From the NCBI RefSeq assembly GCF_019649055.1, contig NW_026570221.1, forward strand, positions 1,798,001 to 1,862,000: a DNA stretch of 64,000 nt. The letters are read 5' to 3'. The notes under the pieces are model-generated. The model saw only the letters and a list, made by a program, of their open reading frames with translations. It was not told the DNA's origin and did not search any database. The translations under genes and the position numbers were made by a program. How positions within the stretch are numbered: the first letter of the stretch is position 1; each line of letters begins with the position of its first letter. Source of the stretch: Paramacrobiotus metropolitanus. Lineage: Eukaryota > Tardigrada > Eutardigrada > Parachela > Macrobiotidae. Shown here in pieces: positions 1-64,000 of this stretch.

Positions 1-9
1 TTCCGGATA

Positions 10-34149: not shown

Positions 34150-34935
34150 TAACAAACTCTGGCGAGGAGATCACGAGTGTGCTTTATTGTACAAATAAAG
34201 GGGAACAATGCTGCGTAATAGCAGAAAGCAAGAACATAGCACGGATGGCTAAAGTAGCAAGTGGTTGCTAAAAGGGTTCTTGGGCGTCTGATGGCGGGAA
34301 AGGAATGCTGGCGGCAACCACGTGCGTGCTGCAGGCCAGTCGTATCAGCTGTGTGATGCGCAGACTGGACTCGATCCAACGCGAGCGTATGAACGCTAAG
34401 TGGTACTGCGAGAGAGGGATGAGAGAGCAAGTACAGCTCAGTGTGTGCGCTGCGTATATCCGCTTCAGCGGATGAGTCAGTGTAGCAGCAGCACACGTAC
34501 GTACAGCGAGAGAGGCGATAACGGCATGCAATGGGTGCAAGTACGTTCTGTATGGACCGTACGCACCAGGCGCAGTCGTACGCCTCTGACATGCCTCTGG
34601 GCGGGAATCCGAGCTCCTCGGTACCGCACCAGTACCGCACAACTCTCCGGTTGGACCCAATGTGGGGTCGCCGGTACGTGTCCTCTGGCAGCGGGAGTCC
34701 GTTGTCTGGTTGACCGTCCCATCTTCACTTCCGAACCCGTGAGAGGAAGCCAGTCACGGCCGAAGAATCCGGAAGTCGCTCGGGCGCTTCGTTGGACCGA
34801 TGATGCATCTGTTGACTGGCTTCTTGCTTCTGCTGGCATCGGAGAACAATGTAAAAAGAAATGTAATGAAAGTTTATGCAGCGCAAAAGAAAGTATGAAA
34901 TAAAGTTTAATCACAATTCAAATGAGCAAAGGGGT
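34150..34935 (-). repeat. LTR-like 3' end of family B
   Basis: Minus-strand sequence ends in ...GTTACA at 34150 with an AATAAA at 34188-34183 about 35 bp before the end, fitting a short R-U5. Contains a family B type hairpin, GACCC/GGGTC with loop AATGTG (about 34657-34672). The outer border near 34.9 kb is a guess and no second LTR is in the window. Confidence 0.45.
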
Positions 34936-37900
34936 TACAAAACAGATCTGTCAAAGAGATCGAACTAGAAAAATACAATTTCATTTGTTAAGGAAAAAAA
35001 ATTGCTAAGAAAATGCACAAATCTGTCCGGGGGTCCTATTCCGACTAGGATGACGTCCACGGGGTCTCCTGTCAACTCTCATCCGGTAAATCTGGGTCCG
35101 GGGCATCAGTTCCCGGGTTACCCGTCGTAGCCGGCTACTTTCACCGAGGTCGCATAAGCATGGTTAACAGAGACACTGTTGCAGTTGCAAATGCCGAGGC
35201 ATCCTCTCTGAATGGGGAATAGGACAGAGGTCGGTTTGACCAAGGTCGGCCTACCGGTAGGTCGACCGGCGGCTGGGGGAGATTCGGCTATGTTCCGAAT
35301 TCCTAAAGTTCAGGTCGGAACAAGCTGTATGTCAGACATGCGGCCTTTGTGGTGGTCATGTACAGCAATTCCGTTCAAAAGTGGTCGGTTAAGACCGTTC
35401 AATCTGCTACCACGAGACTGGTTTGGAGTTATCCGAGTCGGACTGGCTCGAAGGTCCGGTCAGAAATCATGGGTTTCTTCAATGGAAGTGTGCAGTCGAG
35501 TTCGATCCGATGTGTTCCGTTGTTATCCGACCTGTAGTCGAGGTCGGTTGTCCTATCCATCGGTGGTCGACCAGGGTTAACCTGCAATAACATGCCCATG
35601 TGGGGCTAATTAAGTTCCTTCAGGTCGAATTCGTCCACTGCATTCATTCATCCATGGCCGACTTCCGACTTGTGGTCGGTTATCCAAGGTCGGCTTCCGA
35701 AGGTCGGATGAACTGTGTGTTCTTCCGCTTAAGGGCTGAATTCTTCCGTTAGGAGGTCGGTGTCCGACTTCCACATGCCTTTGCCGACTTGTTGTCGAAT
35801 TTTTCCGACCTACGTTTGGTCGCTTCCGACCTCCGTTTGAGGTCGGTTAGGCATACTTCTTAATGGTCGAACTAGACGACTTATACCGTTATGCCCATGT
35901 GGGGCTGGCCGGCACTCGTCAGGTCGACTTCCTTCTGCCATTAACTCTGGGTCGGATCCAAGCTTCTGTTGGGCGGTTAATCCGTGTAACGCGCCTCTGA
36001 GTAGCCGAGTCCTGCGAAGTTGGAGTTTCCCTGGCATCTGTTAGCCCAGTGACGGGCGGTTCATCATGCAATTATGCTCGCTTACAACGCTAAGGGTCTT
36101 TGTGGCCCCGGTTGACAACAAGACAAGCTCTTTGGTTTAAACTTCATGCACATGCAAGTCCATGAGGTCATCAGATCCGATTCTTCCTTTCTTTGTCGCA
36201 ACCTGAGACGCCTAGCCGCTTCTGTTGGGGGTAGACGACTCACGTCCACGGGGAAATTTTCTTTGCCGGTTTCGCTGACCAATTGGCCGGTGCTGTTGCG
36301 GGCAAGTGGTCTTCGTCACCGGAGGTTCGCTTAGGGGGGTGCAGGCCGCGTGTTCTAACTCGGTCTGCCTAGGATGTTCCATGGAAGGCATGGAGAAGCA
36401 GGTCGCGGCGGAGTCGTTGGAGTGGCGGCCAGCTAAACCGTCGCCGTTCCTCTTCAGGGAATTGCAGCACGTTCAAGACGCGCGTAGTCGTGGTCACCGG
36501 TGAATCGGCTGTTTTACCCGTTATCCTTTGGGGGAGACTTCGGTTGGACTCCGGGTACAGGTTCCTAGTTGAGTTCCTGTAGATCTGGGTTCAAACGGAG
36601 AATCCGGTTGGGCTACCATACTACTACCATATAACCGTCGTTTGTTTCCGTCCGTCTTTCCTGGTCGACTTCTGTTGATCGTTATGGTCGACCTGTGTGG
36701 TCGGCTATAATGTCGACTTCTCGTTGGTCGGCTACCATATACTTAGTCGATCTGTGTGGTCGGCTAGGGTAGCGGGTCGTGGTTCAGCGATCTGCCTCCT
36801 TGCAAGTCCGTTTTGAATGTGGTAAATTTCCACAACCGACCTTTGTGGTCGGTTTGCACAACCGATCTTTGTGGTCGGCTAGTGCAGCAGTGTCCGCAAT
36901 GTCTCTATTATGGCGAAGTACGAAGTCAACCTTTGTGGTCGGCCCAAGTACTTACGTAGTCGAATCCGAGTCGCCCTGCGCTGTAGGCAGCTCGGCCGAG
37001 GGATATCCGCTGTTTACACTGGTGAAGGTTGCTCGACTACCCGGTTCCAAAGTTGGCCACGGGTGCTTGGCAAGCATGGCGTGAAACGCTCACAGTTACG
37101 TGTTTCGCGCCATGCTAGCGTCATCCTCTCAGTCATTGCTCCGGAGTCGGTTGGCCGGAGTAATCCTCGTAGCTGATCGTGGTTGATGGCGCGATCTGTA
37201 TCATGTAACCTACGTTCGGCTCCATGTAACGCGGATTGGGGCTTCTGTTGGCTCCAATGGTAAAAGAACGTAGTTCACAATGTGCTATGTTAGCCGATGT
37301 GGTTACGATCTGTTAATGCCATGCTGGGGAACTGAGGTCGGTTTGCCCAGTTCGGTCCAGGGGATTCCTCGGAGGACGTACCGGTACGGTGAAAGAATCC
37401 GGCTTGTCAGGTCTAACCACTCGTGTCCGGGTCAAACCGAAGAATCCGACTAACTTTTATAGTCGGTACTACTGGCAAAGTTATCGTTGACGTCCGCTAT
37501 ACATGGTTAGTCGGTTTCTATGAAAAGAACTAAAGAAAGGTGTCCATTCCGAAGTCGTTTCTCGACGGTGCTGCTTCTCAGCTGGACTGTTTCTCAGTCA
37601 GGTCGGTTATCGACCGTGCCGTTTGTAGGCGCGAAGTGCCCCCTGCTATTCCAAGTGAGGGATCGAGTTCCAATGTGGGAACTCGATCTTAACTCAGTGG
37701 GACTTCGACTGGCTTGTCGCCGCCGCAGTAATCTTCCTCATTTTCGTCGTCTGGGCGAGGTCGGTGGTGTGGCCGTAAGGTCGGTTCCTTAGGCTTGCAA
37801 GTCGCCGGGCCACTCCGTTGGGACGTATCGTCAGTCTCATCCGTTTCCTGACCTGGGCGTTCCGCCTTAGCCTTCTTTTCCTTGGCTGCCTGCCTTCGGA

Positions 37901-38176: not shown

Positions 38177-39893
38177 TCATCTCGTTTTAATACAGTCCGT
38201 ACAAGGTGCAATGGCAAAAGTAATTGCCAAGCCTCGCTGCGAAGATGAATCGCAGGAATGCCGTGACTCCGTCCTGGGCGAGGTCGATCTCTCCTTCCGG
38301 GAAATGCTGGTTAAGTCCAGCGCTGCCCGAGCCGCGGTGATAACAAAGGCTGGATGCGCGTCCGTTATGACGAACTGGGCGATGCTTTCCAACTCGTCAT
38401 GGGCATATTCCCGAGCTCCTAGTTGGCTCGCACGCGTTCCGTCAGGGCTGTACAGCGGTACATTCAGCAAGACTGGGTCGGTCATCGACGGTAACGCATT
38501 CGATCTGGTGTATGGGTGTTCAACATTCTGCGCTGTTTGCGCATTTATGTTGAAGTCCCGTTACCACTGGTGTTGTTCCAGCAGAGTCTGATATCCTGAT
38601 CGGACGAGGAATTGACGAAGGTTTTCTACCATCCGCCAAACTTGTGGGCAATTTCGCTCCTCGTAATTCATGACGTTCATTATGTGATTCGTTCGTTCGT
38701 TCGGATGTGGGATAATGACCTCGATTCCCTGTTGTCGGGCATGGTCGTAACGAGGATCTTCTTGAGCTGGCACTTCCACTTGTGGTAGTTGTGCCATTTG
38801 GTCGGCCACATCGACGTCCATTTGTTCGGGTTATGCTGCCGGTTCAGCTTGAACTTCAGCCACCAGTTCCGCCTAGTGGGCTTCCGGCTGCTGCTCGGGT
38901 GGGACAAAGTTACGTTTCGACTTATTTGTTAAGTCGACCGTAAGTCCGATTCCCGTTTCTCCAGATCCAGTGCGTTTTCCTGGTCGAGGTCTGGTCGGTT
39001 CTTTTCCGACTTCGCGAATGACAGCTCGTTGTTCTTCTTCTGTTTCGAAGATCGACATGACCAATCCTATGTCGGAGGTCGTGTCCCGCGTGATTCTTAG
39101 CGGGTAGGCGGTGCTGCTGTTGGGTCGCCAACGAGGCTACTGGTTGAGTCCGATTTCCATGTTGAGGAATCTGGTTGGAAGCAGTTGGACGAGCCTGTGT
39201 GACTACTGGCGTTGCCCTATGTGGGACTGCCATCAACTGTTCTTCGGTCGCCGGAGTAAGGATAACCATCTGTTGAGTTCCGTCCGGCATATTCATCATC
39301 ATCTACACTGATGTGTCCCTCAATGGTCGGTTTGGGTTACCGACGAAGACGTCACGTATGTCGTAGGTCAGCTGTTCGCTATCCGAGCGACCCTGTGTGG
39401 GTGCCGGTAACCGAATCTTTATGTCCGGTTCGTAGGTGGTCGGTGGCGGATGAACCCGCATTGTGGCGATCCGTTCATCAACCTCCTTGATCTTCTTCTG
39501 ATCTTCCAGTTGACGCTTTATGTCTTGCGTCTGTCGGTACATCCACAGCCTATCTGTTAAGACTGGTGGTACAGTTCCGTCCCATCGCGGGTTGCGACTT
39601 CGTTGTCGCTGGATGGTGGCTAGATTGTCTTGTTCATGAGCCTCCAGCTGATCCACGAGAGTTTCTCTACGGGCTATGTACCGATACGCGCTCAAGTTTC
39701 CGGCGACAACATTAATGTACAGTGCCGCTGCCTGAGCTCGTGTCTGCGGTCCAGCGCCAACGGTCCGTTCATTGGTGAAAGAAACGGTGCAATCTGCGCA
39801 GGGCAATCTGTTGTTGTCCCGTGTGGCATTATCCCTGCACTGTTGGCAGTCCACCGTATAGGCTTCCGTACGAGTCTGTCAAAACAAAAGTAA
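38177..39893 (-). pseudogene. Terminal reading frame ORF-Y, family B
   Basis: Starts near 39.89 kb with a zinc site DCQQC...PCADC (CX2C-X13-CX2C) followed by NERT, exactly as in family A ORF-Y. Then comes a helical region (LAAHEQDNLATIQRQRSRN-like, KRQLEDQKKIKEVDER). Gln/Pro-rich sequence follows (39302-38922), then a block at 38821-38561, and the C-terminal domain at 38485-38177: LPSMTDPVLLNVPLYS, DAHPAFVITAARAALDL. The last motif aligns with HVNPAFKVLALRAAIGL of family A. At least three frame changes and several stops break it. Family A's RS-like tract is not obvious here. The shared N- and C-terminal domains across very different families mark ORF-Y as an ancestral component. Confidence 0.65.
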
Positions 39894-40050
39894 GCAAACC
39901 GTTTCTCGGTTGCATCCTATAAGTTTACACCCTATAATTACTACGGTCGGGCCAGGTCGGTTCTCGAACTGGTCCAAGACGCCTTTGTGGCCATCTAGTG
40001 AGGTAGGTCGACTTCTGTTGGTCGATGACGCCTATGTGGTGTCGATGGAG
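39894..40050 (-). other. Spacer upstream of ORF-Y, family B
   Basis: Non-coding and hairpin-bearing: GCC/GGC loop TTTGT (about 39980) and GACGCC/GGTGTC loop TATGT (40027-40043). This is the counterpart of the family A spacer at 26134-26487. The left inserted sequence begins at 40051. Confidence 0.55.
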
Positions 40051-41050
40051 TGCAGTAGTTGCGCCAGTTCCAACTTTGTCAGTTCTATACGATTGTTCTG
40101 GTCCAACGTTTCCGGGCAGAGGGATACAAAAGGATCGTACTTGTTGAGGTACACAAATGTAATGTTATCCACCAGATGTATTTCTGCATCCATTGTGCTA
40201 CAGTAGCCAACATACTCTAATATTGTATCAGCCATTTTTCACGGTTTTGCGAAAAGTAAACTGAAATTTTGTACGCGCTTTCAGTGAGCACGTGCACAGC
40301 AATATGGCCTGTGGCAGCTGGCGATGATGACGTCAGTGGCGATAAGCCTACAGTAATTGTACTTTCCACCTGCTCCGCATCGGTACCCACATCATACACT
40401 AGCGTCTTGGTAGAGTATACTGCACAGACCAGTCATACACTGCCACTACGCGCAAGCAAATTTACATTGTACGAGTACTGTACTTGGTACTCATATAGAC
40501 CGAGCGCGCCAACAGTATGCTATGTGGTTGAAATCGGACAGCGTCTGTCAGCGCCTGGCGATGTGTCTTTTTTCAGAAAGCGCCAAGAAAAAACAATACT
40601 TGTACTTAATACTGCACCGGACCGCTCCACACAACACTGACCCCCTCACAGTACCGGCCCCCGCACAGCGCGGGGCTCCGCATAATACCGCACCACACCG
40701 GCTCCCGCACAGCACCGACCTCCCGCACAGCACTGTACCGCAAAGGTACGGTAAACAGGACCTAACCACCATGTACAAATACTGTGTGTGTTTATACTGC
40801 CACTACTCGTTGTACTTACATACTGCATTGGACCGCTACGGACCGCAATGACTCCTGCAGACAGCATCAGCACTGCCCATACTGCATTGGACCGCTACGG
40901 ACCGCAATGACTCCTGCACAGCACCGCCCTGCTCCGAACGCCGGCCCCCGCACAGCGCCGACCCCCTCACAGCACCGGCGCACACACAGCACGGGAACGT
41001 ACAGGTTCTGTACTCTCATTACTCGCAAACAAATAGTACGAGTCCTGTAC
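40051..41050 (-). repeat. Left arm of a 1-kb inverted repeat
   Basis: Reverse complement of 44286-45202 at very high identity. Read on the minus strand it carries the same ATG-initiated frame beginning MADTILEYVGYCSTMD, cut off after 60-odd codons at 40051 where family B sequence resumes. Contains a local duplication absent from the right arm: an ACTGCATTGGACCGCTACGG unit at about 40823 and 40882. GC-rich runs of CCCGCACAGC words lie near 40650-40740 and 40950. Confidence 0.85.
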
Positions 41051-43734
41051 TTTGCACTCATATGGTCAGGACCCGGCAACAGCCTGCTTTCTGATTAAAA
41101 TTAGATAGTATTCGGCTGCGAGCATGCACTCTATCTGTTCAATCATCGAACTTTGGGGCAGAAGCAACTTATTTTTCTGATTAAAACTACAGACAAGTTT
41201 ACTTGTACCTAACGAAATTCAATACTAGGTGTGACAAACCAACCAGCCAGTTGATTAGACAAATCAGCCATGTACTGTATGTATTTTACTGTACTACGTG
41301 CAAACAAATATACGAGTACGAGTACAAATATAGAAATATTGTACGAGTAGTGTACTTTGTACTCATATGGACAAAGCGCACCAAAACAGTACGCTGTGAC
41401 ATTGCTGTCTGAATAAAATCAGTCAGCATCGTTCACCACCTGTGAGCGTGCAGCCTGTCTGTACAGTCATCAAATGTTGGAGTAAAATTAACTTATGGGG
41501 TGATTAACATTAGAGATAAGTTTACTTGTGCCTATGAGCATTGAATACCAGAAGTACATACTGGTCGGCACAAACAATATAAACGTACATGCGTGACGTA
41601 GTTGCCCATCCACCGGGAACAGTCGCGAGCCAGCGTCTTGAAGCATACGTTGTTCGCATATTGATTAACGGTTATTATAGTATGTGTTATAAAATATTGA
41701 CGTACAAAAACCAAGCTCCAACCTTTTTGTTGTTGAAAAAAATTGAACTTTCGTCTATAGGTTTCATTAAACCTTTGATTAGGACATCAGCTCCAACCAC
41801 AAAATAGAGGAATTTAATATTTTCTTACGAAATATGTGGAATTCCACGCATCTATTCCTTCCCGAAATAGCACGTACAGCGCAACTACACAGGCTGCTGC
41901 TCAGGTACCGAAGTGGTTCAGATCGGTGAAGTGATGTGGTTACCTACAATGAATAGTACTTATTACAACTATACTGCATCAGGGAACTGATATATACATA
42001 GATCTCTACAAGTACCGTGTATAATGTACCGCACCACACCGGACCCAACACAACACCGCACCATACCGGCTTCGGCACGACGATGCACTGCGCGGTACCG
42101 TATAGGTATTGAATGTATTGTACTGTCACTACATGCAAACAAAATATAAATTGTACGAGTACTGTACTTTGCACTCATATTAAAGCAAGACACTCAAGTC
42201 TCTCAAAGTGGATTGCTTATCCAGCGGCCCACGAGGCCAAAACGACTGTTCTGTGTAGGTGGTATTACACGAGATGAGGAAAGAACATAAACAAACACAC
42301 ACTGTCACTGGCACACAACTTTACTTCTCAATCAAACACACGTTAGCAAATTAATTGCCGTCGCGTAAGACCGGCCAAAACTCAATTAAAATTCCTCTCC
42401 ATAAATTCGGCAGTTTACCGCAGCATCTCAACACCTGTAATCAGTGTGATCAGCCACACTGATCACATGTTACGCTGAACGCTTCAATATTGACAGAACG
42501 CAGCAACCGCCTGCTTTCTGATTGAAAGCAGTTAGCATCCGGCTGCGAGCATGCATCTTGTCTGTTCAGACTTTGGGTCAGAAGCAACTTGTTTTTATGA
42601 TTAAAACTACAGATAAGTTTACTTGTAAAAATAGCAATGAAATACTAGATGTATTTGCTGCAAACAATGCAAGATTTACACTGGTCGGAGCAAACTTGGT
42701 AGTCGTACCGTGCTGACATCCACCGGGGGCAGCCGCGCGTAAGTGTCTTAAGCATATGTGTTTCGCATATTTAAAAACACATATTACAAATTAATACGAT
42801 TATAATGACATACAGACACATGCTTCAACTAAAAAAGCAATATTTAACCTTTTTCAATGTGAAATGTGGAATTCCACACGTCGACACCATGAAACGGCTA
42901 AAAAAACAATACTTTTACATTCACCGCACTGGCCCATATCGGACCCAGCACCACGGCGCACCGCAGCCCCTGACGCCGCACAGAACCGGAACCGAGTAGC
43001 CATGTACTGTATATACTGTACTTCCACTACTCGCAAAGAAAGATAATATATTGTACGAGTACTGTACTGTTTACTCAGATGGCCACAGACGCAGACAGGA
43101 AGCTGGTTCATTTTAGCGTTTGATTGAGACTACAGATAAGTTATGCTTATACCTATGAAAATCTGTAATAGATGTACATAGAAAAAACAACACCGTGTAT
43201 GTACTGTACGGCACAAGCATTTCGGTTGTACATTTACCGTGACGCATGTATCCACTGGGATGGAAACTGCCTTTAAGCATAAGGTGTTTGCATATTTACG
43301 AACAGATATTAGTAATATTTTAATGGGCAATAGCCGCCAAGATAATGACTGCATGCGCTTGGACACTACCAGAAAGTTAATATTTAATCAATCAAAAACA
43401 ACCAAAATCGAAAGCAGTAGAACGCACTTTTTCAATTAAGTCTCGAATTTGACGGCCCATGAAATGCAACAGGTCACTCATAGCGGGGGCCAAATACCCC
43501 CAGTCTCAATCACTAAAAGATAAAAAAGTATCCGTTATCCAAAAACTGATATGTTCGGCGCTTGGAATTTTTGCAAGCTGAGCAACATGTCCAGGTTCCT
43601 TACAGCTGCCGGTGACATGCGGCTGTACACCAACTAGTTGCATCCCACACCAGCAGTTTATTGGTAATTAATATAATCAATTTAACTACAGATACTGTGC
43701 TTCAACCACAAAGGAGCGGCAATAAATATTATAT
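41051..43734. repeat. Degenerate repeat units of the inserted sequence
   Basis: At least three diverged copies of a unit of several hundred bases. Recurring words in order: TACGAGTACTGTACTTTGCACTCATAT-like (41035, 41340, 42155, 43050, with variation), CTGATTAAAA, GATAAGTTTACTTGT (41180, 41515, 42612) and a CATCCACCGGGA-like block (41610, 42718, 43250). No coding frame. It looks like a tandem satellite or old copies of the same insert as the inverted arms. Confidence 0.55.
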
Positions 43735-44285
43735 TTTGTGTACTTCGGTCAGGTGAGGCAGGTTGCTGGCTATAGTGAGCCATGAGCTGTCGTCCTGCTC
43801 TGGCCAAGAGAATTTCCATCTCCGTTTCGAGTTGTTCGATCCGGTGTTCTGCCGGTCGACCTCGTTGTCGGCCTGCTTGAGTTCGACAATGTATCTGTCG
43901 ACCTCATTTCGGTACACTTCAGCCTCTTCGTTGGCTTGATTCAACTGCTGGTGGAATGTCTCTGCTGCCAGTTCCGATTCAACCAAGGCTGTTTGCGTGT
44001 TAGCCAGGTCCTTTTCCCCGGTGGCGAGCCGTCTTTTCAGTTCAAAGACTGATTCCACGGACGTTGCAAGTGTACTTCTGAGTCGTTCGACCTCTTCGAA
44101 GTCGTACCGACATGGGTTGTCGGACCTCTTGAGGTGACTTTCCAGATGTTCTATCCGGCGCTGTTGAGCGGCTATACCAGTGTTGGCTTCAGCGAGTTCC
44201 TTCTCCCATCGCTTTCGTTCAAGCTTATGGGTGTCCTCCGATCGTGACATCTGACTTTCCGTGGAGTTAACGATTTGGTCGGCCC
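43735..44285 (-). pseudogene. Isolated segment of family B ORF-X, coiled coil
   Basis: Minus-strand frame with heptad-rich sequence (KLERKRWEKELAEANTGIAAQ, ERLRSTLATSVESVFELKRRL, ELAAETFHQQLNQANEEAEVY) and family B base use. It lies between the two inserted blocks, so it is original element sequence separated from the rest of ORF-X at 45.7 kb. Its upstream codons in the same frame (44472-44286) are insert-derived. Confidence 0.55.
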
Positions 44286-45202
44286 GTACAGGACTCGTAC
44301 TATTTGTTTGCGAGTAATGAGAGTACAGTACCTGTACGTTCCCGTGCTGTGTGTGCGCCGGTGCTGTGAGGGGGTCGGCGCTCGGAGCAGGGCGGTGCTG
44401 TGCAGGAGTCATTGCGGTCCGTAGCGGTCCAATGCAGTATGTAAGTACAACGAGTAGTGGCAGTATAAACACACACAGTATTTGTACATGGTGGTTAGGT
44501 CCTGTTTACCGTACCTTTGCGGTACAGTGCTGTGCGGGAGGTCGGTGCTGTGCGGGAGCCGGTGTGGTGCGGTATATGCGGAGCCCCGCGCTGTGCGGGG
44601 CCGGTACTGTGAGGGGTCAGTGTTGTGTGGAGCGGTCCGGTGCAGTATTAAGTACAAGTATTGTTTTTCTTGGCGCTTTCTGAAAAGACACATCGCCAGG
44701 CGCTGACAGACGCTGTCCGATTTCAACCACATAGCATACCGTTGGCGCGCTCGGTCTATATGAGTACCAAGCACAGTACTCGTACAATGTAATTTGCTTG
44801 CGCGTAGTGGCAGTGTATGACTGGTCTGTGCAGTATACTCTACCAAGACGCTAGTGTATGATGTGGGTACCGATGCGGAGCAGGTGGAAAGTACAATTAC
44901 TGTAGGCTTATCGCCACTGACGTCATCATCGCCAGCCGCCACAGGCCATATTGCTGTGCACGTGCTCACTGAAAGCGCGTACAAAATTTCAGTTTACTTT
45001 TCGCAAAACCGTGAAAAATGGCTGATACAATATTAGAGTATGTTGGCTACTGTAGCACAATGGATGCAGAAATACATCTGGTGGATAACATTACATTTGT
45101 GTACCTCAACAAGTACGATCCTTTTGTATCCCTCTGCCCGGAAACGTTGGACCAGAACAATCGTATAGAACTGACAAAGTTGGAACTGGCGCAACTACTG
45201 CA
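44286..45202 (+). repeat. Right arm of the 1-kb inverted repeat
   Basis: Mirror of 40051-41050. The homology stops exactly within the reading frame at 45202; to the right the sequence is unique to this copy. Confidence 0.85.
44918..44925 (+). promoter_or_regulatory. CRE-type site TGACGTCA
   Basis: Perfect palindromic ATF/CREB consensus about 93 bp before the ATG at 45018; also present in the left arm (about 40329). A TATA-like AGTATACTC lies further upstream. It suggests that the inserted unit carries its own promoter. Confidence 0.4.
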
Positions 45203-45480
45203 CTTATGATGCCTCAAGTCGCTCACGCGTGGAGCAGAAAATCCAACTTCTTGGAAAACGCAACACAGATTTCACATTTCTACTGGGCCTGGGCGGAGAC
45301 TGCGAGCGGCCATTGGCAATTACACAGGCGGAAAACATCATCAAGATATCGTTTCACGCACTGCTGTTGTTGCTGAGAGAATTCATGTATACTGATTTTA
45401 CATACTTTGACTTACCTATTGACTCGCATGACGCTACTGTGTGGAGCACGGTTTTCAACACTTTGTTGAATTCCGAATAG
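45018..45480 (+). CDS. Unknown protein encoded by the right insert
   Basis: ATG at 45018 opens MADTILEYVGYCSTMDAEIH...YLNKYDPFVSLCPETLDQ...LELAQLLH. At 45202, the exact end of the inverted repeat, the frame changes. A second frame continues through KIQLLGKRNTDFTFLLGLGG, a Leu-rich helix and DLPIDSHDATVW to a TAG at 45478-45480. AATAAA follows at 45502. The two parts may once have been one protein of about 150 residues, with the junction disturbed by rearrangement; splicing is also possible. I recognise no family. It does not resemble transposases I know. Confidence 0.4.
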
Positions 45481-45529
45481 AGTAAAAAGAGGGTGGGGAA
45501 AAATAAACAAAAGAAAGGGGGTAAAGTAA

Positions 45530-45610
45530 GTCCTGTCCGGTTCCGGTTTGGTTCGGTTCCGGTTCGGTTCAGGCCGGTTCGGTTCGGTTCCGGTTTGGCG
45601 GTTCAGTCCG
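45530..45610. repeat. GGTTCCGGTT-type simple repeat
   Basis: Degenerate tandem GGTTC/GGTTCCGG words directly after the poly(A) signal of the insert gene. Confidence 0.7.
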
Positions 45611-45617
45611 GCTCCGG

Positions 45618-51487: not shown

Positions 51488-51527
51488 ATACCGAACCGAG
51501 TAAGATCTTCCACTAGCCCTATGTTGG

Positions 51528-54360: not shown

Positions 54361-55116
54361 GGTATGACTGCTTTTTTAGGTGTCTTGGATTTTGCGGTTT
54401 TGACCGGTTTCTCGGAGTCTGCCCGTCCTTCGGAAATTCGTTCGAGGATTTCTTTATGGGCTTCATCTTTGGCGACTTCAGTTTCCTCCAGCATTTGTTG
54501 TGCCGTCAGCTTCGGTTTCTTAGCTGTCCCGTACCTTCGTTTGGGCTTGGTCTGCTGCTACGACTTCTGTAGTCGGCGCCGATGTGTTCGGTAAGTCGGC
54601 CTTCCGTTTTGTGTATTTCCGCTTGGGCTTAGTCGGTTGGACGGCCGAGTCGGCTACAACGACCTTTGTGGTCGGTGCCGACGAGTCGGTTTTCTTAACC
54701 GTCTTCTTCTTCTGAGCTGGCTTTGTCACCGGCTTCGGTTCATCGTTTGATTGGTCGGCTGGCTGGACCGGCGTTTCCGACTTGTCTACTGGCTCCTTCG
54801 GTTTCTCCGTGGTCGGTTGGGCTTTGTTCTCAACTTCTTCCGAGGTCGGTGCTGGTTCAGCTGCTATCACATCTTGTTTCTAAAGTTCCTTCAGTGCAGG
54901 TGTCTCGAAGTCGGTCGGAGGTTTCTTCCGAGGTAGACCTCGTTTCTGTTTCACTTTCGATTCGGTTTTATCCGCATTGTTCGTCGGATCCGAAGATTTT
55001 TCGACGAATTCTTCCGATTTCTTCGGCTTCCGAGTAGCTTTCCCTTCTGGAAGGTCGGTTACCGGGCCGGTTGACCGAGTTGCTGGTCGACTTGTCTCGA
55101 CTCGGCAATGTTTCAC
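54361..55116 (-). pseudogene. Basic tail region after integrase, family B
   Basis: Minus-strand pieces 55116-54880 and 54870-54520 share one frame with a stop between. Lys/Pro/Thr/Glu-rich throughout, with basic clusters KQKRGLPRKKPP and KPKRKYTKRKA and two TTKVVV/TTEVVA peptides that coincide with hairpins (for example 54660-54674, CGACC/GGTCG loop TTTGT). Family A integrase has a comparable KKRGRSKKE tail, so this is probably its extended C-terminus, perhaps DNA- or nucleus-targeting. Confidence 0.5.
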
Positions 55117-55137
55117 TCGGTCGACGGCTACCGTATC

Positions 55138-56373
55138 TTAACGTCCGTCTTCGCCTCGAAGGAACAAGTTGTTTGGGCCAACATAGTTGATGACCGTCAA
55201 AACTCCGTCGTAGCGTTCCTTCCGAGTTGGGTCCTTGGTCGGAAATTCCACCGTTACCTTATCCCACGGTTTGAAGGTTGGAGTCGACTTCTTCTTGTTG
55301 TAGTGCTCGGCGTTTCGTTCGAATGCTTCATCAATGTTGATGCGGGCAATCTCATGCGAGCGCTAAAGTCGTTCCTTTATCTGTCGGATGTAGTGTTCCT
55401 TGTCGGTGAAAGTTTCCGGTGTATTCGTTCCGGCCACTACGTCCTGTGGCATGGTCATTTCCCGACCATACAACATGTAGAACGGTGAGAACGTAGTCGC
55501 GGCGTGGACGGCTCGGTTCATTCCGCAGACGACGTAATCCAAGGCTCTGTGCCATCGGTGTCCATCTTTTACATCGCAGAACTTCCTTATTCCGTCCCAT
55601 ATCGTTTGCATTTGCCGTTCGACTTGTCCTTGTCCTTCTGGATGGTGGGCAGTTCCAAGCGTGTGTTGGATACCGAATATCCGTGCGACCTTAGCGAACG
55701 TTTTCGCCGTAAAGTGTGTCCCTCTGTCCGAGTGGAAAAATGTCGGCATTCCATACTTCAGTAGGACATTTTTAACGAAGAACCGTTCGAATTCTCTCAC
55801 GGTGTTCGTCTTTGTTGCCCGGGCGACGGTGAACTTCGTCAGCTGGTCGGTTACCACTGCGATGTTCTGGTATCCCTTCGTCTCCGTTCGAGGAAAAGGA
55901 CCTTTGTTAGTCCGCGTATATGCGATACCAAGCTTCACCGACTTCCGTCTTTTGGAGTTTACCCGGTGGTGGACATCGTTGCTTGTTCGTCATGATGCAC
56001 TGTCGGCATTTCTCGATGTAGGAGATGGCGTCGTTATTCATGCGAGTCCAGTAGTAGCGTAACTTCAGTGCTCGATCGTTTTCTCCCTTCCGAAGTGGTT
56101 TCCGGTTTTTCCGTCATGGAGCGATCGGATGATTTGATTGCGCATAAAGAGTAGTACGACGAAGCAACGTTCCAACTTTGTGTTGATCATCTTCAGTCTG
56201 TACAGAACTCTTTGCGCCATCTGAAAGTGTTCCAGATGTTTCGACTTATGGTCGAGTTTTTCTGGATTCTCCAGTTCGTCAATAATTTTGCCTAGCTGCG
56301 GGTCTCGCAACTGCGCTTTCCAAAGTTCCATGTTCGGTTCGGGCGGCGGTGGGAGCGTTTCTTCAACTCCCAA
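55138..56373 (-). pseudogene. Integrase, family B
   Basis: 56373-56065 gives the start of the HHCC domain (LYRLKMINTKLERCFVV, HDGKTGNHFG). The next frame has YYWTRMNNDAISYIEKC and RQC, then PPGKLQ and the first catalytic Asp in RIYAD. After another frame change near 55918 the core continues: VVTDQLTKF, the second Asp in HSDRGTHFTAK and Glu in GQGQVERQMQ. GMNRAVHAATTFSPFYMLYGREMTMPQD and, beyond a TAG at 55363, a C-terminal SH3-like domain (FKPWDKVTVEFPTKDP) follow to 55138. Unlike family A copy 2, all three DDE residues survive, but in separate frames. Confidence 0.8.
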
Positions 56374-57074: not shown

Positions 57075-58889
57075 TTAGCGCCCTCTTAATGTCGTTGAAC
57101 TCGGCCGTATGGGCTTCCGTTCAATTGAGCTTAATGTTTTTATCCTTTCGTAGAAGCTCGTACATTTTGGAAGTTTTCTGAGCGTATCCTCGGACGAACT
57201 TACGATAATAGTTGGCCAGTCCGAGGAACGACCTGAGTTGTCGTTCAGTTCTCGGGCAGCTTTGTCTGCGATACAGGCCACTTTCTCGTCATCGGTCTGG
57301 ACTCCGTCTTTGCTGAGGACGTGTCCAAGGAATAGCAGTCTGTCCATTCCGATCTTGCATTTCGAGGGTTTGACCGTAAATTGAGCATCTCGGAGGCACT
57401 CGAAAGTCGCTCGGAAAGCCTCCAGGAAGTCTTCAAAAGTTTTACCGAAGAAGATGATGTCGTCAATGTAGGCGAACACACCTTTCTTCCGAGCTGATGC
57501 TGTTATCTTCTCCATATGCATCTGGAAGGTTGCTGGTCCGTTGCAGACTCCTAACAGCATACGGTTAAATCGCCACATGCCTTCGGGTGTTACGAAGGTC
57601 GTGTAGTCTTTGGATTGTTCGTCCATGGGAATTTGCCAGAAACCAGACTGACAGTCTACCTTGCAGAAATACTCCATTCCGGCGCATCGGTCCAATAGCT
57701 CGTCCGGCGTTCAGTAGTGGGTAGTCGTTCTTTTTCGTAACGGAGTTCAACTTTATATAGTTGATACAGAAGCGTGTTCCTACCGTGCCGTCTCCGTTCC
57801 GTTTCGCGGCTAAGACAACGGGAAAGCTCCATGCAGCCGATGAAGGTTCGATGACTCCTTGGTCGAGCATCTCCTGCACGTGTTTTTGGATGAATTCCCT
57901 CCCCTTCCAGCTTGTCCTGGTGGGGTTCATCTTAATCGGCTGTGCCCCTTGGACGTCGATGGTATGTGTTACCCCTTTGACGTCTCCGTAAGGTTTCTTG
58001 GAGGTCGGAAATACGGTCCGGTAATCCCGTGCAACTGCCTTCAGTTCGGCTAGTTGCTCATCAGTTAAGTTTTTTCCGAAGTTCATGGAGTCGATGATTA
58101 TCCGTCGCTCCTCTTGGGATTCCGCGTCTTCCGTTTCTACTTCAGCCTTGTTGACTCGTGCTTCTTCGACCTTCTGGTCGTCCGTCATCATTGTGAATGC
58201 TTCCACTCTACCCATCGGTGCAGCTTTGCGTAAGGTGACCTCTCGTTGAGTGTGATTTGCCACCATGACGGTAAATCGTTTTCCGTCATGCTTGGTTACG
58301 CCGTCCATGAATTCGACTCCGTCTCGTTTGGGGTCGGATTCTCCTAGGTACATCAGTTTCTGTCCCGTGGATACTGGTACGTCCAGGACGACTTCTACCA
58401 TTGTTACGGCTCGAGGTATGAGTTTGACCTTCCGTTGAGATCGAACTCCTGTTGCCTCGAAAACTTCGAATTGGGGTTTTGGCTTTACTTCCCGAGTAGG
58501 GGGCCATGTCTTCGCCACTTTGTGTGGGAGTTCCCATTCGACGAATTCGTTGTTGATTTCCGGTTCGTAGACATCGGCGTATTGCATATGGCCGAGTCGT
58601 GCGCCCTTCTTCAACACCTTTGTTTGGTGAGTCGTATTCTGGATGTTTATCCATGCCGTGTCGACTTGAGGTCGGATATCGATCTTGGCTTCGATTGGCC
58701 GAATAGGTCGGACTACCCGTTGTAGGGTAGAGAAGTAAATTCGTCTTCTTGGATCCATTGGTTTGGCCGTCCGTACCTTGATCGAACATGTTAACCATGG
58801 TGGGAGAGAGACTCGTTCGCTGTTGAAGACCACTTGTCGGTCTAGCGCTCTCGTTTCTACAAAAGGATCCAGCTTTAGGTGGTGAACTT

Positions 58890-58908
58890 CTGGACATTTG
58901 TTGTCCAG
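58890..58908. repeat. Perfect 7-bp hairpin, loop TTTGT
   Basis: Arms CTGGACA and TGTCCAG within the acidic region of Pol. Confidence 0.85.
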
Positions 58909-59460
58909 GTTCAGCTCTTCGATCGTCTTAACTTTGGCGACCCGTGCCTTCCATGTGTTGAAATGCACTGATTTCTGTTGGTCGGTCAAGTTAACCAAGG
59001 TCGTTTGTTCCGTTGGCAACTGCTGGACGACTATAGTTGGAGGTCGGAGGTCGTCTTCTTCCGGTTTACCTCCTCCAAATTCCCATAAAGCTTTAAGTTG
59101 GTCGAGTTCTTCCTGTTGTTCAGGGTCGACCGATTTCTGCTGTTCGGTTTGTTCCGGTTGCTCGTCTATGAATTCTGTGTGAACTATAGACCGCAATGCT
59201 GTAGTTAGCCGAACATCGAAGGTCGGTTCTTCGTTCTCCGATGACGAATCGTCCGAGTCGTTTATTCTCGGTTTATCCGTCTTACAGTGTCGGACTGACA
59301 GGTTGAATTCTTCGTCGTCGTCTTCTTCGAATTCTTCCGAAGGTTGGGTATCGGAGTCCGTGTCCGCCGAGTCGCTCGTACTTTGTATGTCCGAGTCGTC
59401 CGACTGATAGTCTTCGTTTTCGACGGCTGTTCCGTCTTCATGTCCCACCTGCGTTATGTG

Positions 59461-59490
59461 GCCGACTTCGACCTGTGTGGTCGATTCGGC
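59461..59490. repeat. Eleven-pair hairpin, loop TGTGT
   Basis: Outer arms GCCGA/TCGGC and inner arms TCGACC/GGTCGA, with a small CT/T internal loop. One of the strongest family B hairpins. Confidence 0.9.
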
Positions 59491-60051
59491 TTGGTCGACC
59501 GTGTCCTTCGGTTGGGTTGGTCGACTCGCTCCTTCCTGATTCTCAAGGTCGGTTGGCTGTGAGCCTATGTTGCTCAGCCATCGGATGACTGTCGGTTAAG
59601 TCTTCCGAAAGCGGTCCACTCTCCGTTCCTGTTGCGGAGGCGACGGTGACGACGGTCTGTCGTCCGACCAAGTTAGGTCGTGGTGAGCTTTTATAGCTCG
59701 TACTACCTCGTCAATATTGTCTCGACAGATAGTGCACCGATAAGGTTTTTCAGCTTCTTCTAGGATTACGTTGTCCCGCGGTCTCGGCGGGTTACTCACG
59801 AACTTCACGTCGGTCGGAGTATGGTAAATGAGTGGTGGTAACCGGTTAAGGATTTGCCGTGTTATCGCGGTATCCTCACCGTACCGTTGCCAAAATGCGG
59901 TAGTTGACGATTATCCGTGCAACTGTACTCGCTGCATGTAGGCGAAAAGTTGAAAGCCAAGTTCATGGCATGGCATTTCCAAAGGAGGTGGTATAGGAAG
60001 TCCGTACTCCATATACTGTCGATGGATAGGGATTCGTTCGTCTTCCCATTC

Positions 60052-61089
60052 CTATGCCTCGTCGTCGATGTCATTCATCAAAGCGATTAGCGGTTCACAC
60101 GTTTGTTGTGCGTCCAGTATTTGCTCGTAAGTTACCGCTCCGCTTTGTTGCAGAGTGATCACCATCTCCAACGTCTGTTGGTCGAGAAAGTGTCGCATTC
60201 CCGAGAACCAAGTTCGGTACCTTTGTTGTACCTTTTCTCGGTTCTGGGCATCCGCGTCGGCGGATGCCTCTGGTATCGGGATAGACTTTAGTATCCGCTT
60301 TGCCGGTCGTAATGTACCGTTGCGTATCTGTCCCTGATAGTGTTCTATAACGCTATGGAGTGCTAGTTCCTCCAGCAAAGTGCGGTTCGTATCCCGGCAA
60401 TCGCGGCAGATGTTACGTGTGGAGCTCGCCGGGTGATCAAGCCGACTAATCCGAATCTCGTTTCCTACCGCGTCCGATGCCTCTGGTATCGGGATAGACT
60501 GCACTACCGTCATTCCTTCTGGTTGTTCCGGAGTAGGAATCGGCGTCAGAATGAAGGTGAACTTGGAATGCAGATAGTCGCATCCGACTAGCACAGGAAC
60601 GTCCGCGTCGGTCGGCTGGACGTGGAAGGTGTGATGGCTTGTGAAGCCCTGCATTGTTACAGGTGCTGTACAGCAATGAGACACTACGAAGGCGACTTGT
60701 CCGCCCACACCAAGTATTTTGGTGTAGTGTCCGAGAGGTTGCATCGTCAAACCGTTCCTCTCGCAAAATCGTTGTTCGATGAGCGAAGTCTCCGCTCCGG
60801 TATCCAGCATCGCCAATGTGGACGTGGACCCGACTTGGATTTCGTGTGTCCAAGCTCGAACTGTCTTCGGTTTCTTATGAGTTCCCTTCTCAAAAGTTAC
60901 TTCCCGTATTGTTGGTTTGATGGGAATTAACGACACCGGTCCCTTGTCGGCTGACTGTTGAGTTGAACCTTGTGTAGGCTCAACTCCGACTTCAACCACT
61001 TCTTGTACCTCAGGTCGGTTAGCTACTCCATCCTCCTGTATTTTGGCGGTTCCGAACCGTTGTGCCTGTTTACGTTTGCATTCTTCCAC
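60052..61089 (-). pseudogene. Retropepsin-type protease and linker, family B
   Basis: 345 open codons. TLAMLDTGAETSLIEQRFC is the catalytic DTG region and VLVGCDYL the end of the domain; the flap region has GVGGQVAFVVSH. Two copies of SIPIPEAS follow, spaced by about 75 residues, with a CX2C (ICRDCRD) between. Then RYRTWFSGMRHFLDQQ matches family A's RYKKWLSCVRNFI. The frame closes at a TAG (60052-60054) and similar sequence continues toward the RT frame. It is the most intact enzyme in this element and would process Gag-Pol. Confidence 0.8.
60961..60985. repeat. Hairpin AGTTGA-CCT/AGG-TCAACT, loop TGTGT
   Basis: Nine pairs with one A-C mismatch. The stem sequence is unrelated to GGTCG yet the loop is the same, which separates loop conservation from stem conservation. 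Confidence 0.85.
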
Positions 61090-61116
61090 TTTGGCTGCCG
61101 TTGGCCTCAGTTTTGA

Positions 61117-62504
61117 TCACATATAGTCGAGGTTGAGGAATGTTCGAGAGCCGGCGACTGTTCTTGTTGGCTGCTCGTGGCGTTGCTGGAAGAGATCCGT
61201 CTCTCCCGGCCGAGAGTAAACGGGTACCTGTGCTTCCGATGGGACTATCTCCCATTCTTCGAATCCTCCCGGTTCTTCGGTGAGGTCGATAGCTGCCATT
61301 GTTGCAGCGTATCTATCCGTTGTATGGGCGGATGATACATTGGGGAAGTTTCTGTTGCCCCGGTGCGTGAATCGGCGTCCCGGTCCTCCACGTCTTGGGC
61401 CCCGTCTGGGCTGCTCGGTTGAGTTTATCCTCACCGGCAATCCGGTCCAACTTATGTGGTCGGGCCGTGCTGCGTCACTTTGTGTGGCAGACGGCGCAGT
61501 CGCATTGTTTGCGCTGCGTGGGTCGGGCGGTTCAAATGTTCCGACCTCCGACGTTTCTACGCCAGGTTGAGGCGCCGGGTCGGCCGTTCCGGGCAATCCC
61601 TGCGTTCCGACCTCCGACGTTCCAACGCCAAGTTGATGCGCTGGGTCAGGTAGGTCGGGCATTTGTTGCGTTCCGGTCCGGAATTCGATTTTGCCGTTGT
61701 TGACAAAAATCCCGAGTCGTTCTGCCATTGTTTTGGCCATTGCAGCTTCTTCTGTTGAAGCCGACAATGCGTTTACAAAGTCTTCTTCCGTATTGGTGTG
61801 GTTCAGACCGAGTTGTCTGACCATTGCATCCCTCCGTTGGATGGCTTCCCCCTCTGTTGTGGGTTCAGGTGATTCTCTCCGGTTATAACGCGGTTGGTTA
61901 GTCGGGTTATCCTTGTCCGGGGTTTTGGTGGGATGTTGGAGGTCGAATGGGTCACCGGAACTCATGTTTTGGCCATTGCAGCTTCTTCTGTTGAAGCCGA
62001 CAATGCGTTTACAAAGTCTTCTTCCGTACTGGTGTGGTTCAAACCGAGTTGTCTGACCATTGCATCCCTCCGTTGGATGGCTTCCCCCTCTGTTGTGGGT
62101 TCAGGTGATTCTCTCCGGTTATAATGCGGTTGGTTAGTCGGGTTATCCTTGTCCGGTGGTTTGGTGGGATGTTGGAGGTCGAATGGGTCACCGGAACTCA
62201 TCGACCTTAGGCGTTTCTCGGGGAGTTGCCCCGGGCCGGCCCATTGTTGGGTGGCGTCGAGTTCAACGACTGGCGGGCGGCAACGGTTCTCTGTATGCCG
62301 GAGAACCTTGTTGACTCCCACCGCTATTCCTGCGGTTTCCGCCGTTTTTTTTAGCCGGGCGACCGGTTTCCGTTGCCGGAGCTCCCCGAGCCACCAACCT
62401 GTTGCTGGCGACGGCGTGGTGGTGGCACGATATCCCTCCAAAATGGATTGACCGAGCCAACCGGACCCTGCGTCGAATATCGGCGGTACCAATCGTCGTA
62501 CCAC
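61117..62504 (-). pseudogene. Gag-protease linker region, family B
   Basis: Polar sequence between nucleocapsid and protease. The frame from 62504 enters the first copy of a 236-bp duplication and stops. A second frame starts MSSGDPFDLQHPTK at 61965 and runs 282 codons through LNHTNTEEDFVNALSASTEEA, two GTQ/GTS...PDPA repeats and an Arg/Gly-rich patch (RRGPRRGGPGRRFTHRGNR) to 61117. Probably part of the Gag-Pol polyprotein; no enzyme motif. Confidence 0.5.
61731..62202 (-). repeat. 236-bp tandem duplication
   Basis: 61731-61966 and 61967-62202 differ at only a handful of positions, so the event is recent. As 236 is not a multiple of three, it breaks the reading frame. Confidence 0.9.
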
Positions 62505-64000
62505 CGAAGATTCGGGTTATCATGTGATCCGTATACGCAGCGTGACTCGTCATGGTTGTTGAACATGCAGTGTTTGCATGAGAAGGTCTTGTCCTTCGTC
62601 CACTGGAAGAACGACTGTTCCATTTTGTCGGCGTATGTTGTCGCCTGCCGAGCACCTTGTTGTGCTTGGGAAGGTCGGTTGCCTTGTGGGCTGCCGCCTC
62701 CGCCGCGGTTAGGGAAGTTACCACGGCCGCGATTCCCGAAGCCGCGTCCTCTTCCGCGTCCATAACCTCCGCCGCCGTATGCCTGTGTGGGAGCTTGGCC
62801 GTATGCGGAGTACCCCTGGTTAGAGTTCTGGTTATAACCGAAGCCTGTGTTGCTTTGGTTACCACCCGGGCTACAACCTGGGCCACCGTAGTTGTTAACG
62901 GGGGCACCAGTTCCAGGTGCCGGGGGGTTCAGGTTCATCGCTACCGTTCCGGCCCAGGTCGGTGGCTGGACAAGTGCCTGTTGCACCGGCGGCGTTACCA
63001 TCGGACTCGGTTGTCCGTACTGTGCCGTCGGAGTCTGATATCCCGGCATCATATGCGGCTGATACGCGGTCTGTTGCGGTATCGCCGTAGGTGGAGTTGG
63101 AACAGGTGCAGGTGTTGCTTCGAACTCGAATATAGTCACTGTCACGTGACTTTTGCACCTCGTACATTTCTTTGCCGTTGACAAAGCTCCGTATGTAGTC
63201 ACGGAACTCGACCGGTGTCGTCGGCATCCTGATTTCCAGGGCTGCTCGTAGTTGAGGCTCGTGGATGTTCTCCTTAAGGTGGTAAAGTACCATCTGGTCG
63301 GTTATCGTGCGGACCTGGGACGTGATGAACATCATGGCGTCGTAGTATTGTTCCGGAGTTTCTTCGCCGAAACGGAACATACGTTTGTTCATACTGGATA
63401 TTGCGTTCACCTCCCTGTTTTTGTCCGCAAACCGTTCCTCGAACTTGGTCAGCCATAAGTTGACTGGCCATCCGCCGAGCGGTTCGTCGGCAGCTGTCTG
63501 AATATGCCTTTCTTCCGCTTGACCTTCAAGTTTGGCCATCAGGTCGATCATGAAAGTCTTGTCTGTTTCGTACCACTGTTGGGCTTGCTGGTGCAGGCTT
63601 CGAATCTGTTTGAGCCACCCGTGAAGTTTGGTGTGGTCACCATCGAACGGTGGCATAGGTTGCCTACGTCCGTGGGCCATTGCTCATAGCAGACGAACGT
63701 GCCTAGAGTCTTCTTCCGAAGTAATTGGCTGTGCCGCCGGTGCAGCTTGTTGTGCAGCCGGGGCGGGTGGCGGGTTCGCGTATGGCATCCGACCTTGTTG
63801 GTCTTCGTATGCCCCGGCTGATAAGCCGGTTCGTATTGGTCATCATATCCGTCCTGTTGCGGATGCGGTGCCTGAGCCTGGTGTGCATAACGAGGCTGTT
63901 CTGGCTGACCTCCATATTGGTTCTGTTGTGGAGGTGGCGCTCGATTTTGTCTCGGCGGCGGCGGATAGAATCCTCTCGGTTGTTCGTGGACTCTTCCATA
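62351..64000 (-). pseudogene. Gag with CCHC zinc knuckle, family B
   Basis: From the window edge a Pro/Gln-rich N-terminus (PPPPRQNRAPPPQQNQY), with a frame change near 63.8 kb and a TGA just before 63680. Capsid 63680-62895: PPFDGDHTKLHGWLKQI, LEGQAEERHI, RFADKNREV, EQYYDAMMF, YHLKENIHEPQLRAALE, a normal gypsy capsid pattern. A frame change near 63130 leads to 63202-62351 with Gln/Pro-rich sequence, an RGRGRGFGNRGRG box and the knuckle CKHCMFNNHDESRC (CX2CX4HX4C), ending in GSSGNGNRSPG. The gene's start lies outside the window. Confidence 0.8.

Follow-up and report, generated by a model that had tools for sequence, protein, structure and literature searches.

Hairpins with a common ACANA loop are dispersed along a giant LTR retrotransposon of the tardigrade Paramacrobiotus metropolitanus

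We analyzed a stretch of 64,000 nucleotides of contig NW_026570221.1 from Paramacrobiotus metropolitanus (the window), which carries retrotransposon sequence of family A in its left part and a giant long terminal repeat (LTR) retrotransposon, element B, in its right part. Tens of short hairpins with widely differing stems lie along the coding strand of element B, and they share one loop, ACANA, which reads TNTGT on the opposite strand; with its neighbouring bases the coding-strand loop is (C/A)-ACANA-(G/A/T). This loop code was restricted to B among the sequences examined, and its loops and stems are under constraint at the nucleotide level beyond protein coding. We propose, at a probability of roughly 0.4, that the hairpins may be dispersed recognition sites for a protein encoded by the element, the Gag nucleocapsid being the first candidate, and that they may act in packaging and compaction of the genomic RNA. 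Element B, which is probably of the Ty3/gypsy type as judged from its sequence, reads on the minus strand and spans 34.5 kb including a 5.7-kb segment at 40051-45735, and its copies C1 and C2 are 30.7 and 30.0 kb long. Six copies of B were compared. The sequence used for copy C5 stops short of the 3' end, and the segment 40051-45735 was excluded from counts in the window copy. Because the copies are related to each other, p-values calculated over them overstate the significance.

In an unbiased loop test, each of the 1024 5-mers was scored for its position inside a stem of at least 5 Watson-Crick (WC) pairs, enclosed either directly or with 1-2 unpaired bases on each side. When the six B copies were pooled, ACAAA (67/453), ACACA (58/347), ACAGA (42/482) and ACATA (23/176) occupied ranks 1-4 among all 5-mers. 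In the window copy alone, ACACA, ACAAA, ACAGA and ACATA were ranked 1, 2, 3 and 5, respectively, and the best p-value in one shuffled set of this test was 4.6e-4. Strict ACANA hairpins numbered 23, 37, 32, 30, 40 and 29 in the six copies, compared with shuffle means of 0.10-0.80, and none was found on the antisense strand of any of the six. A chance origin was rejected from these counts, as the shuffles stayed far below the observed numbers. Overall, 191 of 1465 ACANA occurrences were in hairpins, compared with 1088 of 186,564 for all 5-mers. Replacement of A1 lowered the rate to 7/2590, and replacement of C2, A3 or A5 gave 0.8-4.3%, while the fourth position accepted any base. The bases flanking the core in strict hairpins were C.G in 92 cases, A.G in 25, A.T in 18, A.A in 13, T.A in 13 and G.A in 7, followed by the rarer G.G (4), T.G (3), C.C (2), G.C (1) and G.T (1). 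Thus, C-G is favoured as the closing pair and G-C is nearly absent, and 49 of the 55 non-WC closings are purine-purine on the coding strand.

The first-pass annotation, made from the letters of the window alone, had reported dozens of B hairpins with a constant loop of the NNTGT type and had listed twelve strong cases. All twelve are present where they were placed, and eleven of them hold the ACANA core on the coding strand; the hairpin at 48680-48700 lacks it. Four of the twelve (46770, 51017, 40027 and 62836) rely on one plus-strand G.T, which is an A.C on the coding strand. The shuffle control suggested there was carried out on the B region with WC stems of at least 5 pairs, and gave 66 loops of 5 nt against 29 and 87 loops of 7 nt against 22. 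The distribution of loop words also differed from that of the shuffles, with the four ACANA words on top of the 1024 5-mers, and the view that a single loop code sits on many unrelated stems in non-coding, pol and ORF-X (open reading frame X) sequence of B was borne out. For TGTGGTCG, a count of at least 12 against about 0.5 expected had been given. The 12 occurrences were recovered, all on the plus strand in the B region, but the expectation from shuffles of the whole window, both strands included, was 2.48, with a maximum of 7 in 100 shuffles. The hairpins of the window copy are as follows, written on the coding strand as arm, loop and arm, and found by the hairpin scan unless another source is given.

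61981-61997, minus strand: GCTTC-AACAGAA-GAAGC
61745-61761, minus strand: GCTTC-AACAGAA-GAAGC, second copy within a 236-bp tandem repeat
60216-60232, minus strand: GGTAC-AACAAAG-GTACC
59560-59576, minus strand: TGAGC-AACATAG-GCTCA
59468-59484, minus strand: TCGACC-ACACA-GGTCGA
58890-58908, minus strand: CTGGACA-ACAAA-TGTCCAG
54660-54674, minus strand: CGACC-ACAAA-GGTCG
54561-54575, minus strand: CGACT-ACAGA-AGTCG
53296-53312, minus strand: ACGACC-ACACA-GGTCGT
52943-52957, minus strand: CGACC-ACACA-GGTCG
51514-51530, minus strand: TAGCC-AACATAG-GGCTA
51471-51485, minus strand: CCACC-ACAGA-GGTGG
51309-51323, minus strand: CGACC-ACACA-GGTCG
49781-49797, minus strand: GAACCC-ACAAA-GGGTTC, a hairpin in 6/6 copies (scan and copies)
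49239-49255, minus strand: CTCATC-ACAGA-GATGAG, strict in 5/6 copies and kept in the diverged subfamily (scan and copies)
38917-38937, minus strand: TCGACTTA-ACAAA-TAAGTCGA
36834-36854, minus strand: AACCGACC-ACAAA-GGTCGGTT, top covariance-model match of the window (scan and covariance model)
36689-36703, minus strand: CGACC-ACACA-GGTCG
35282-35300, minus strand: ATTCGG-AACATAG-CCGAAT
62838-62858, minus strand: CCAAAGC-AACACAG-GCTTCGG, one A.C mismatch, perfect 11-bp stem in C4 and C5 (covariance model and copies)
46770-46786, minus strand: near-hairpin, ACAAA loop, one coding-strand A.C (pairing check and covariance model)
51017-51033, minus strand: near-hairpin, ACACA loop, one coding-strand A.C (pairing check)
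40027-40043, minus strand: near-hairpin, ACATA loop, one coding-strand A.C (pairing check)

The tandem repeat is a 236-bp duplication at 61729-62201 in the window copy, by which one ACANA hairpin was doubled.

The 191 hairpins of the six copies represent 65 homologous sites, and 44 of these have a hairpin in at least two copies. Each site was represented by its best hairpin, so that the pairing of the stems is ascertained; other copies, slid partners and stemless ACANA served as controls. The stems are diverse: 48 hairpins among the 65 representatives were compared at 7 pair positions, and every position showed 4-6 standard pair types, the innermost pairs having been chosen as paired. The stem CGACC/GGTCG is nevertheless common, and CGACCACANAGGTCG, one stem version, occurs 552 times in the genome (169.8 Mb, 533 contigs) as compared with once for the reversed control. 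Among 100 of these 552 places listed, five isolated ones were all within B-related sequence. Derivation of the hairpins from copies of one repeated 15-mer was rejected, as many differing stems exist. The 55 sites that could be mapped are dispersed along B at 1.2-2.8 per kb, with none in one 0.6-kb stretch.

The one-strandedness was reproduced in sequences that had not been used for the definition. Two further pieces, examined after the hairpin definition was fixed, contained 12 and 10 hairpins on the coding strand and none on the opposite strand in either. With a covariance model, all 30 matches up to an E value of 1 in these same two pieces, which lay outside its training, were on the coding strand, and 23 of the 24 matches up to E 10 in the window were on the B coding strand, the remaining one being at 11872 in the left half. 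No ACANA hairpin was found in the 34,147 bases left of B, on the family A side, nor in pieces of two other A copies, nor on either strand of the segment 40051-45735, and the host flanks had one in 27,241 bases. Rfam 15 gave no match at gathering score within the window.

Comparison between the copies indicated the constraint. The ACA.A positions were identical in 2953 of 3132 cells (94%) in hairpins (187 of the 191 used), compared with 5826 of 6960 (84%) for 400 sampled stemless ACANA. Identity in ACANA hairpins was 677/783 at the N position, 90-91% in the arms and 84-85% in the flanks. At third codon positions of the 21 sites in ORFs, identity rose from 0.745 in the flanks (3789/5089) to 0.822 in the arms (332/404) and 0.867 in the loop (111/128), and codon positions 1-2 of the arms equalled the flanks. 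Changes on both sides that restored WC pairing were seen in 44 of the 1624 cells and involved 21 of the 62 sites, whereas sliding the partners gave 8, 9 and 15; some of these cells are possibly misaligned, as two sites have three changes in copy C5. The hairpins were also found in a diverged subfamily, with roughly 68-78% identity to the window copy in matched blocks, which has 19 of them on the coding strand and none on the opposite strand. Twelve of the 19 were alignable, and for ten of these one or more B copies had a hairpin with a stem of 4 pairs or longer at the corresponding site. The loop preference of the subfamily is shifted, with ACAGA (12/79) and ACGGA (6/76) over ACACA (1/31) and ACAAA (3/63). 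Two pieces of the diverged copy, L036 and L037, contained two ACANA hairpins in 9.5 kb and none, respectively; L037 had no match over 300 bases to the window and was excluded from the tally per loop.

An excess of hairpins as such is not peculiar to B. Counts of perfect 7-bp stems enclosing 3-12 nt of any sequence were 55 against 18.8 expected in the host flanks, 25 against 7.8 and 21 against 7.5 in family A, and 9 against 3.7 in the nested segment, while B without its ACANA loops had 223 against 86. The excess in family A (2.8-3.2 fold) equals that in the host flanks (2.9 fold). Since host flanks, family A and the nested segment share an excess of 2.4-3.2 fold, it should be regarded as background, and the signal specific to B is the loop. 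A genome-wide hairpin process as the sole cause in B was rejected from the constraint on loop and arms. In the host flanks the perfect 7-bp excess comes without G.T enrichment, and it is perhaps a general mutational feature of this genome.

The features of element B are as follows.

34148-34592, minus strand: 3' LTR, 445 bp, 96.4% identity to the 5' LTR
68220-68664 if the window is extended (outside it; L009:5220-5664 = C1:1866220-1866664), minus strand: 5' LTR
40051-45735, no strand given: segment without counterpart in the other compared copies, a nested insertion or replacement (alignment gap to copies)
46330-53753, minus strand: ORF-X region, several successive ORFs downstream of pol
55363-55989, minus strand: integrase core (PF00665 rve, 1.7e-10)
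57075-59595, minus strand: reverse transcriptase (RT) region, by nucleotide similarity to the RT of family A
60052-61116, minus strand: aspartic protease ORF (PF13975, PF13650 and PF00077 above cut-off)
62351-63683, minus strand: Gag region, overlapping frames 62895-63683 and 62351-63301 (translation)

The LTR pair thus flanks gag and pol, in which protease and integrase were recognized by Pfam and the RT between them by its similarity to family A. The RT of the B copies has 65-67% nucleotide identity to that of family A (17221-18644), which itself matches RVT_1/RNaseH in Pfam; the B frame tested (57565-59595) gave no Pfam match, and a protein search with it was likewise empty. The Gag region had no Pfam match at 62351-63683. 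It contains a single CCHC zinc knuckle (CKHCMFNNHDESRC, spacing CX2CX4HX4C) with a stretch rich in G, R and Q nearby, and this knuckle is present in five of the six B copies (absent from C2) and in the piece L029. Within the segment 40051-45735, positions 43739-44013 show 70-75% identity to a 5' leader stretch of B copies, the element's own leader in L009 included.

A loop that stays conserved while stem sequence is largely indifferent, and that recurs tens of times on a single nucleic acid, is the outcome expected of selection by a protein reading the loop. In the reading we favour, the ACANA hairpins would fold in the genomic RNA of B, that is, the coding strand, and each would weakly bind an RNA-binding protein that the element encodes; the likeliest candidate is the Gag nucleocapsid, which has a CCHC knuckle. 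Through the combined effect of many such weak sites, the 30-kb RNA would be selectively packaged and condensed into particles, and the replacement of ACACA/ACAAA by ACAGA/ACGGA as the preferred loops of the diverged subfamily might represent co-evolution with the binder. We infer the RNA strand, Gag as the binder and packaging as the step. Several observations weigh against this proposal. The sites are spread along B without confinement to a leader. Retroviral knuckles are for the most part described as binders of exposed guanosines, the C-terminal knuckle of Rous sarcoma virus as a binder of adenosines (PMC7599994), and the ACAAA and ACACA loops have no G, whereas TNTGT on the opposite strand has one. 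Copy C5, possibly a recombinant, has a clearly different Gag knuckle (CNFCKFSNHDQARC) with unchanged loop preferences, which speaks against a simple one-to-one link between loop and knuckle. The 167 hairpins with other loops show 90% identity in the arms and 88% in the flanks, a smaller gap than that of the ACANA hairpins, so that part of the conservation of the ACANA arms is ascertainment. An RNA hairpin is expected to tolerate G.U and not A.C, and the one-sided departures on the coding strand were 135 A.C and 67 G.T, where the flank rates predict 259 and 178 (1.46:1; p 0.017, with copies that are not independent). Both departures are purged in coding-strand stems, G.T more so, and this mismatch test therefore does not favour the coding strand. 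In favour of the RNA reading, predicted folding was stronger on the coding strand, with a mean z of -1.43 against -1.17 for the other strand in 120-nt windows of two B copies (n=513), but this gap may partly stem from a G.U-rich background of the opposite strand. Eight control regions lay between -0.85 and +0.21, among them the nested segment, host flanks and the gap at 30-34 kb, with family A at -0.67 to -0.82. On biological grounds we lean tentatively towards RNA as the functional strand.

The same mismatch counts speak for minus-strand complementary DNA (cDNA) as the functional molecule, in which TNTGT hairpins on the single strand would bind nucleocapsid, integrase or a host protein and might, for instance, protect the long cDNA or start plus-strand synthesis at many places. 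A coding-strand A.C is a G.T on the minus strand, de novo near-hairpins comprise 42 with A.C and 16 with G.T, and the minus-strand loop exposes a G, TG-rich deoxynucleotides being named among the ligands of nucleocapsid (NC) proteins (PMC7599994). We take the cDNA as a serious rival but consider it rather unlikely to be the acting molecule. The tilt is small and comes from related copies, and hairpins with any loop are about equally enriched in G.T (1.93) and A.C (1.79). Moreover, besides the difference in z, the local predicted fold contains 170 of 188 hairpins on the coding strand and 155 of 188 on the other, and the 49 purine-purine closings would be pyrimidine-pyrimidine on the minus strand. 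If RNA is the substrate, the sequence evidence for Gag serves equally for another protein or step, namely nuclear export of unspliced RNA, translation control or a ribonucleoprotein coat, with a product of ORF-X or a host protein as the binder. The run of ORFs downstream of pol, of which the single frame tested (52626-53753) had no Pfam match, offers a candidate, and Cer1 of Caenorhabditis elegans needs its own protein for nuclear export of its genomic RNA (PMC10309623). RNA binding by an ORF-X product is purely putative, however, and host DNA was covered as flanks alone, with the single hairpin mentioned above, and we rate this possibility as rather unlikely. The hairpins could also be unselected scars of template switching during reverse transcription, a mutation process that makes palindromes. 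Host flanks, family A and nested segment have a similar surplus of perfect 7-bp hairpins, which would suit such an origin, as would the lack of preference for G.T, which matches a DNA-copying process. A scar process fits poorly with a loop code that is one-stranded and specific to B, with loop and arms conserved above the flanks at third codon positions too, and with sites kept in the diverged subfamily, and we find it improbable. Least probable of all appears a general structuring of long RNA, for stability or avoidance of host sensing, in which the loop is incidental. B windows without an ACANA hairpin are indeed still folded beyond shuffles (z -1.26). Incidental loops, however, would not put the four ACANA words on top of 1024, nor constrain ACA.A with a free N.

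In family A a different word is over-represented. On the plus strand of window 1-30100, AAAGGTCA was counted 43 times with 0.89 expected, and TGACCTTT, its reverse complement, 17 times with 0.38 expected; GGAAGGT in family A belongs to the over-represented AAGGTC word. The window copy of B has just 3 AAGGTCA sites. Of the 62 AAGGTC sites in window 1-30100, 13 lay in loops closed by stems of 5 or more pairs, compared with 2.58 with shuffled flanks, a count that includes the local repeat pairs 14841/15380 and 21058/21101. For AAGGTCA the plus strand gave 10/52 against 1.75, and the opposite orientation 1/20 against 0.83. In other A pieces the AAGGTC counts were 2/25 against 0.90 (L040), 2/2 against 0.05 (L041, with one hairpin of a 13-bp stem) and 1/17 against 0.67 (L042), a weak replication when pooled (5/44 against about 1.6 expected). 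AAGGTC was the top 6-mer of 4096 in the unbiased loop test of A (p 2.0e-6), but a low-complexity word scored 2.8e-6 in one shuffle, and the link of AAGGTC to hairpins therefore stays suggestive. A pattern testing for neighbouring A words was found at 6 places, and its reversed control at 1. Two examples from the loop-word test are given below.

23960-23988, plus strand: GTTGACGA-ACGAGAAAGGTCA-TCGTCAAC, the loop carrying the A word
23594-23616, plus strand: TCGGCA-GAGGAAGGTCA-TGCCGA

A and B therefore carry different words, with the hairpin loop clear in B and suggestive in A. The first-pass annotation had held that the hairpin strategy is shared between the families with a differing code; the separate word of A stands, and the common strategy is possible but not established. 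AAAGGTCA may do in A what the ACANA code does in B. Its codon frame, judged by eye, varies from one A ORF to another, and 16 AAGGTCA sites were seen in the 4-kb piece L042.

By sequence, the B hairpins show the traits of dispersed packaging signals, namely many stem-loops, one loop motif, largely indifferent stems and constraint beyond coding. The nearest likeness is found in satellite tobacco necrosis virus. Its coat protein has a preference for AXXA in loops of 4-6 nt, at about 30 copies per genome and with indifference to stem sequence (PMC3593212). Short stem-loops, an adenine-bounded loop motif, variable loop sizes and indifferent stems are common to both, but that virus has a 1.2-kb RNA and its coat-protein binding is shown, whereas B is a 30-kb LTR retrotransposon known from sequence with about 1-3 sites per kb. 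Hepatitis B virus (RGAG loops), MS2 and picornaviruses likewise have many degenerate stem-loops with one loop motif along the genomic RNA (PMC7612645, PMC6281560). These systems, unlike B, are backed by selection and assembly experiments, and hepatitis B virus, which does reverse-transcribe, is no LTR retrotransposon. Retroviral leader hairpins, such as the GGAG and GGUG tetraloops of human immunodeficiency virus type 1 bound by NC zinc knuckles, share a CCHC Gag with B and provide a model of loop-specific recognition (PMC7599994); they differ in lying in the 5' leader with G-containing loops, where B has tens of sites along the element with A/C loops. Ty1 and Ty3 resemble B in that LTR retrotransposon RNA is packaged. 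A review of their encapsidation describes the cis-acting sites as not clearly defined, with multiple scattered sites that may contribute, and a recurrent loop motif is not seen in its main text, where the words 'hairpin' and 'stem-loops' are absent (PMC4974528). Burro of planarians is also a giant gypsy-like LTR element, of more than 30 kb with extra coding capacity, but dispersed hairpins are unmentioned in the available text of its report (PMC6431247), and the LTRs of B are short (0.45 kb).

In the open-access literature, represented mostly by titles and the starts of abstracts, we found no report of such a hairpin network in an LTR retrotransposon or of this element, and the available text of a paper on tardigrade transposons (PMC11071193) does not contain 'Paramacrobiotus', 'giant' or 'hairpin'. 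If the proposed role of Gag is correct, B would provide, as far as the literature searched goes, the first packaging-signal network of the small-RNA-virus type in a retrotransposon. Even in Ty1 and Ty3, the basis on which LTR retrotransposon RNA is selected for packaging is poorly defined. Among possible limits on the size of giant elements, packaging capacity has been named (PMC6431247), and authors working on packaging signals have suggested a similar assembly for Gag-like proteins (PMC6281560). A broader and more tentative idea is that LTR retrotransposons of this animal evolved element-specific codes over the whole RNA, ACANA hairpins in B and AAAGGTCA, partly in loops, in A, each of which might be read by its own Gag for self-selection and compaction. 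With many diverged B copies, a subfamily whose loop word has shifted and the differing word of the related family A, the idea of dispersed signals becomes directly testable in a retroelement.

Some further observations were made on the window. Between A and B, a minus-strand ORF at 31763-32377 without Pfam match has several hydrophobic stretches and PPPPTY/PPPPRY motifs near its C-terminus. The family A Pol frame has 77% identity to a Paramacrobiotus metropolitanus protein over 36% of the frame, and the named protein matches of the family include 'transposon 17.6/297/412' Pol proteins. A nematode as the host was rejected, as an exact SL1 spliced-leader sequence had no match. A search with the family A RT gave at least 104 rows, at least 89 of them long (e.g., G000:C1:854946-856373); many lie in open frames of more than 1000 amino acids and some of more than 3000, and from these long open Pol frames family A may be recently active. 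Window 1-3583 and 27915-30100 contain similar ORFs and a 66-nt repeat (3518-3583 and 30035-30100, 98%), which suggests that two related A 3' ends adjoin. Family A tandem repeats are present at 12802-13112, and several of their units fold as a small hairpin with the loop AATGGTA.

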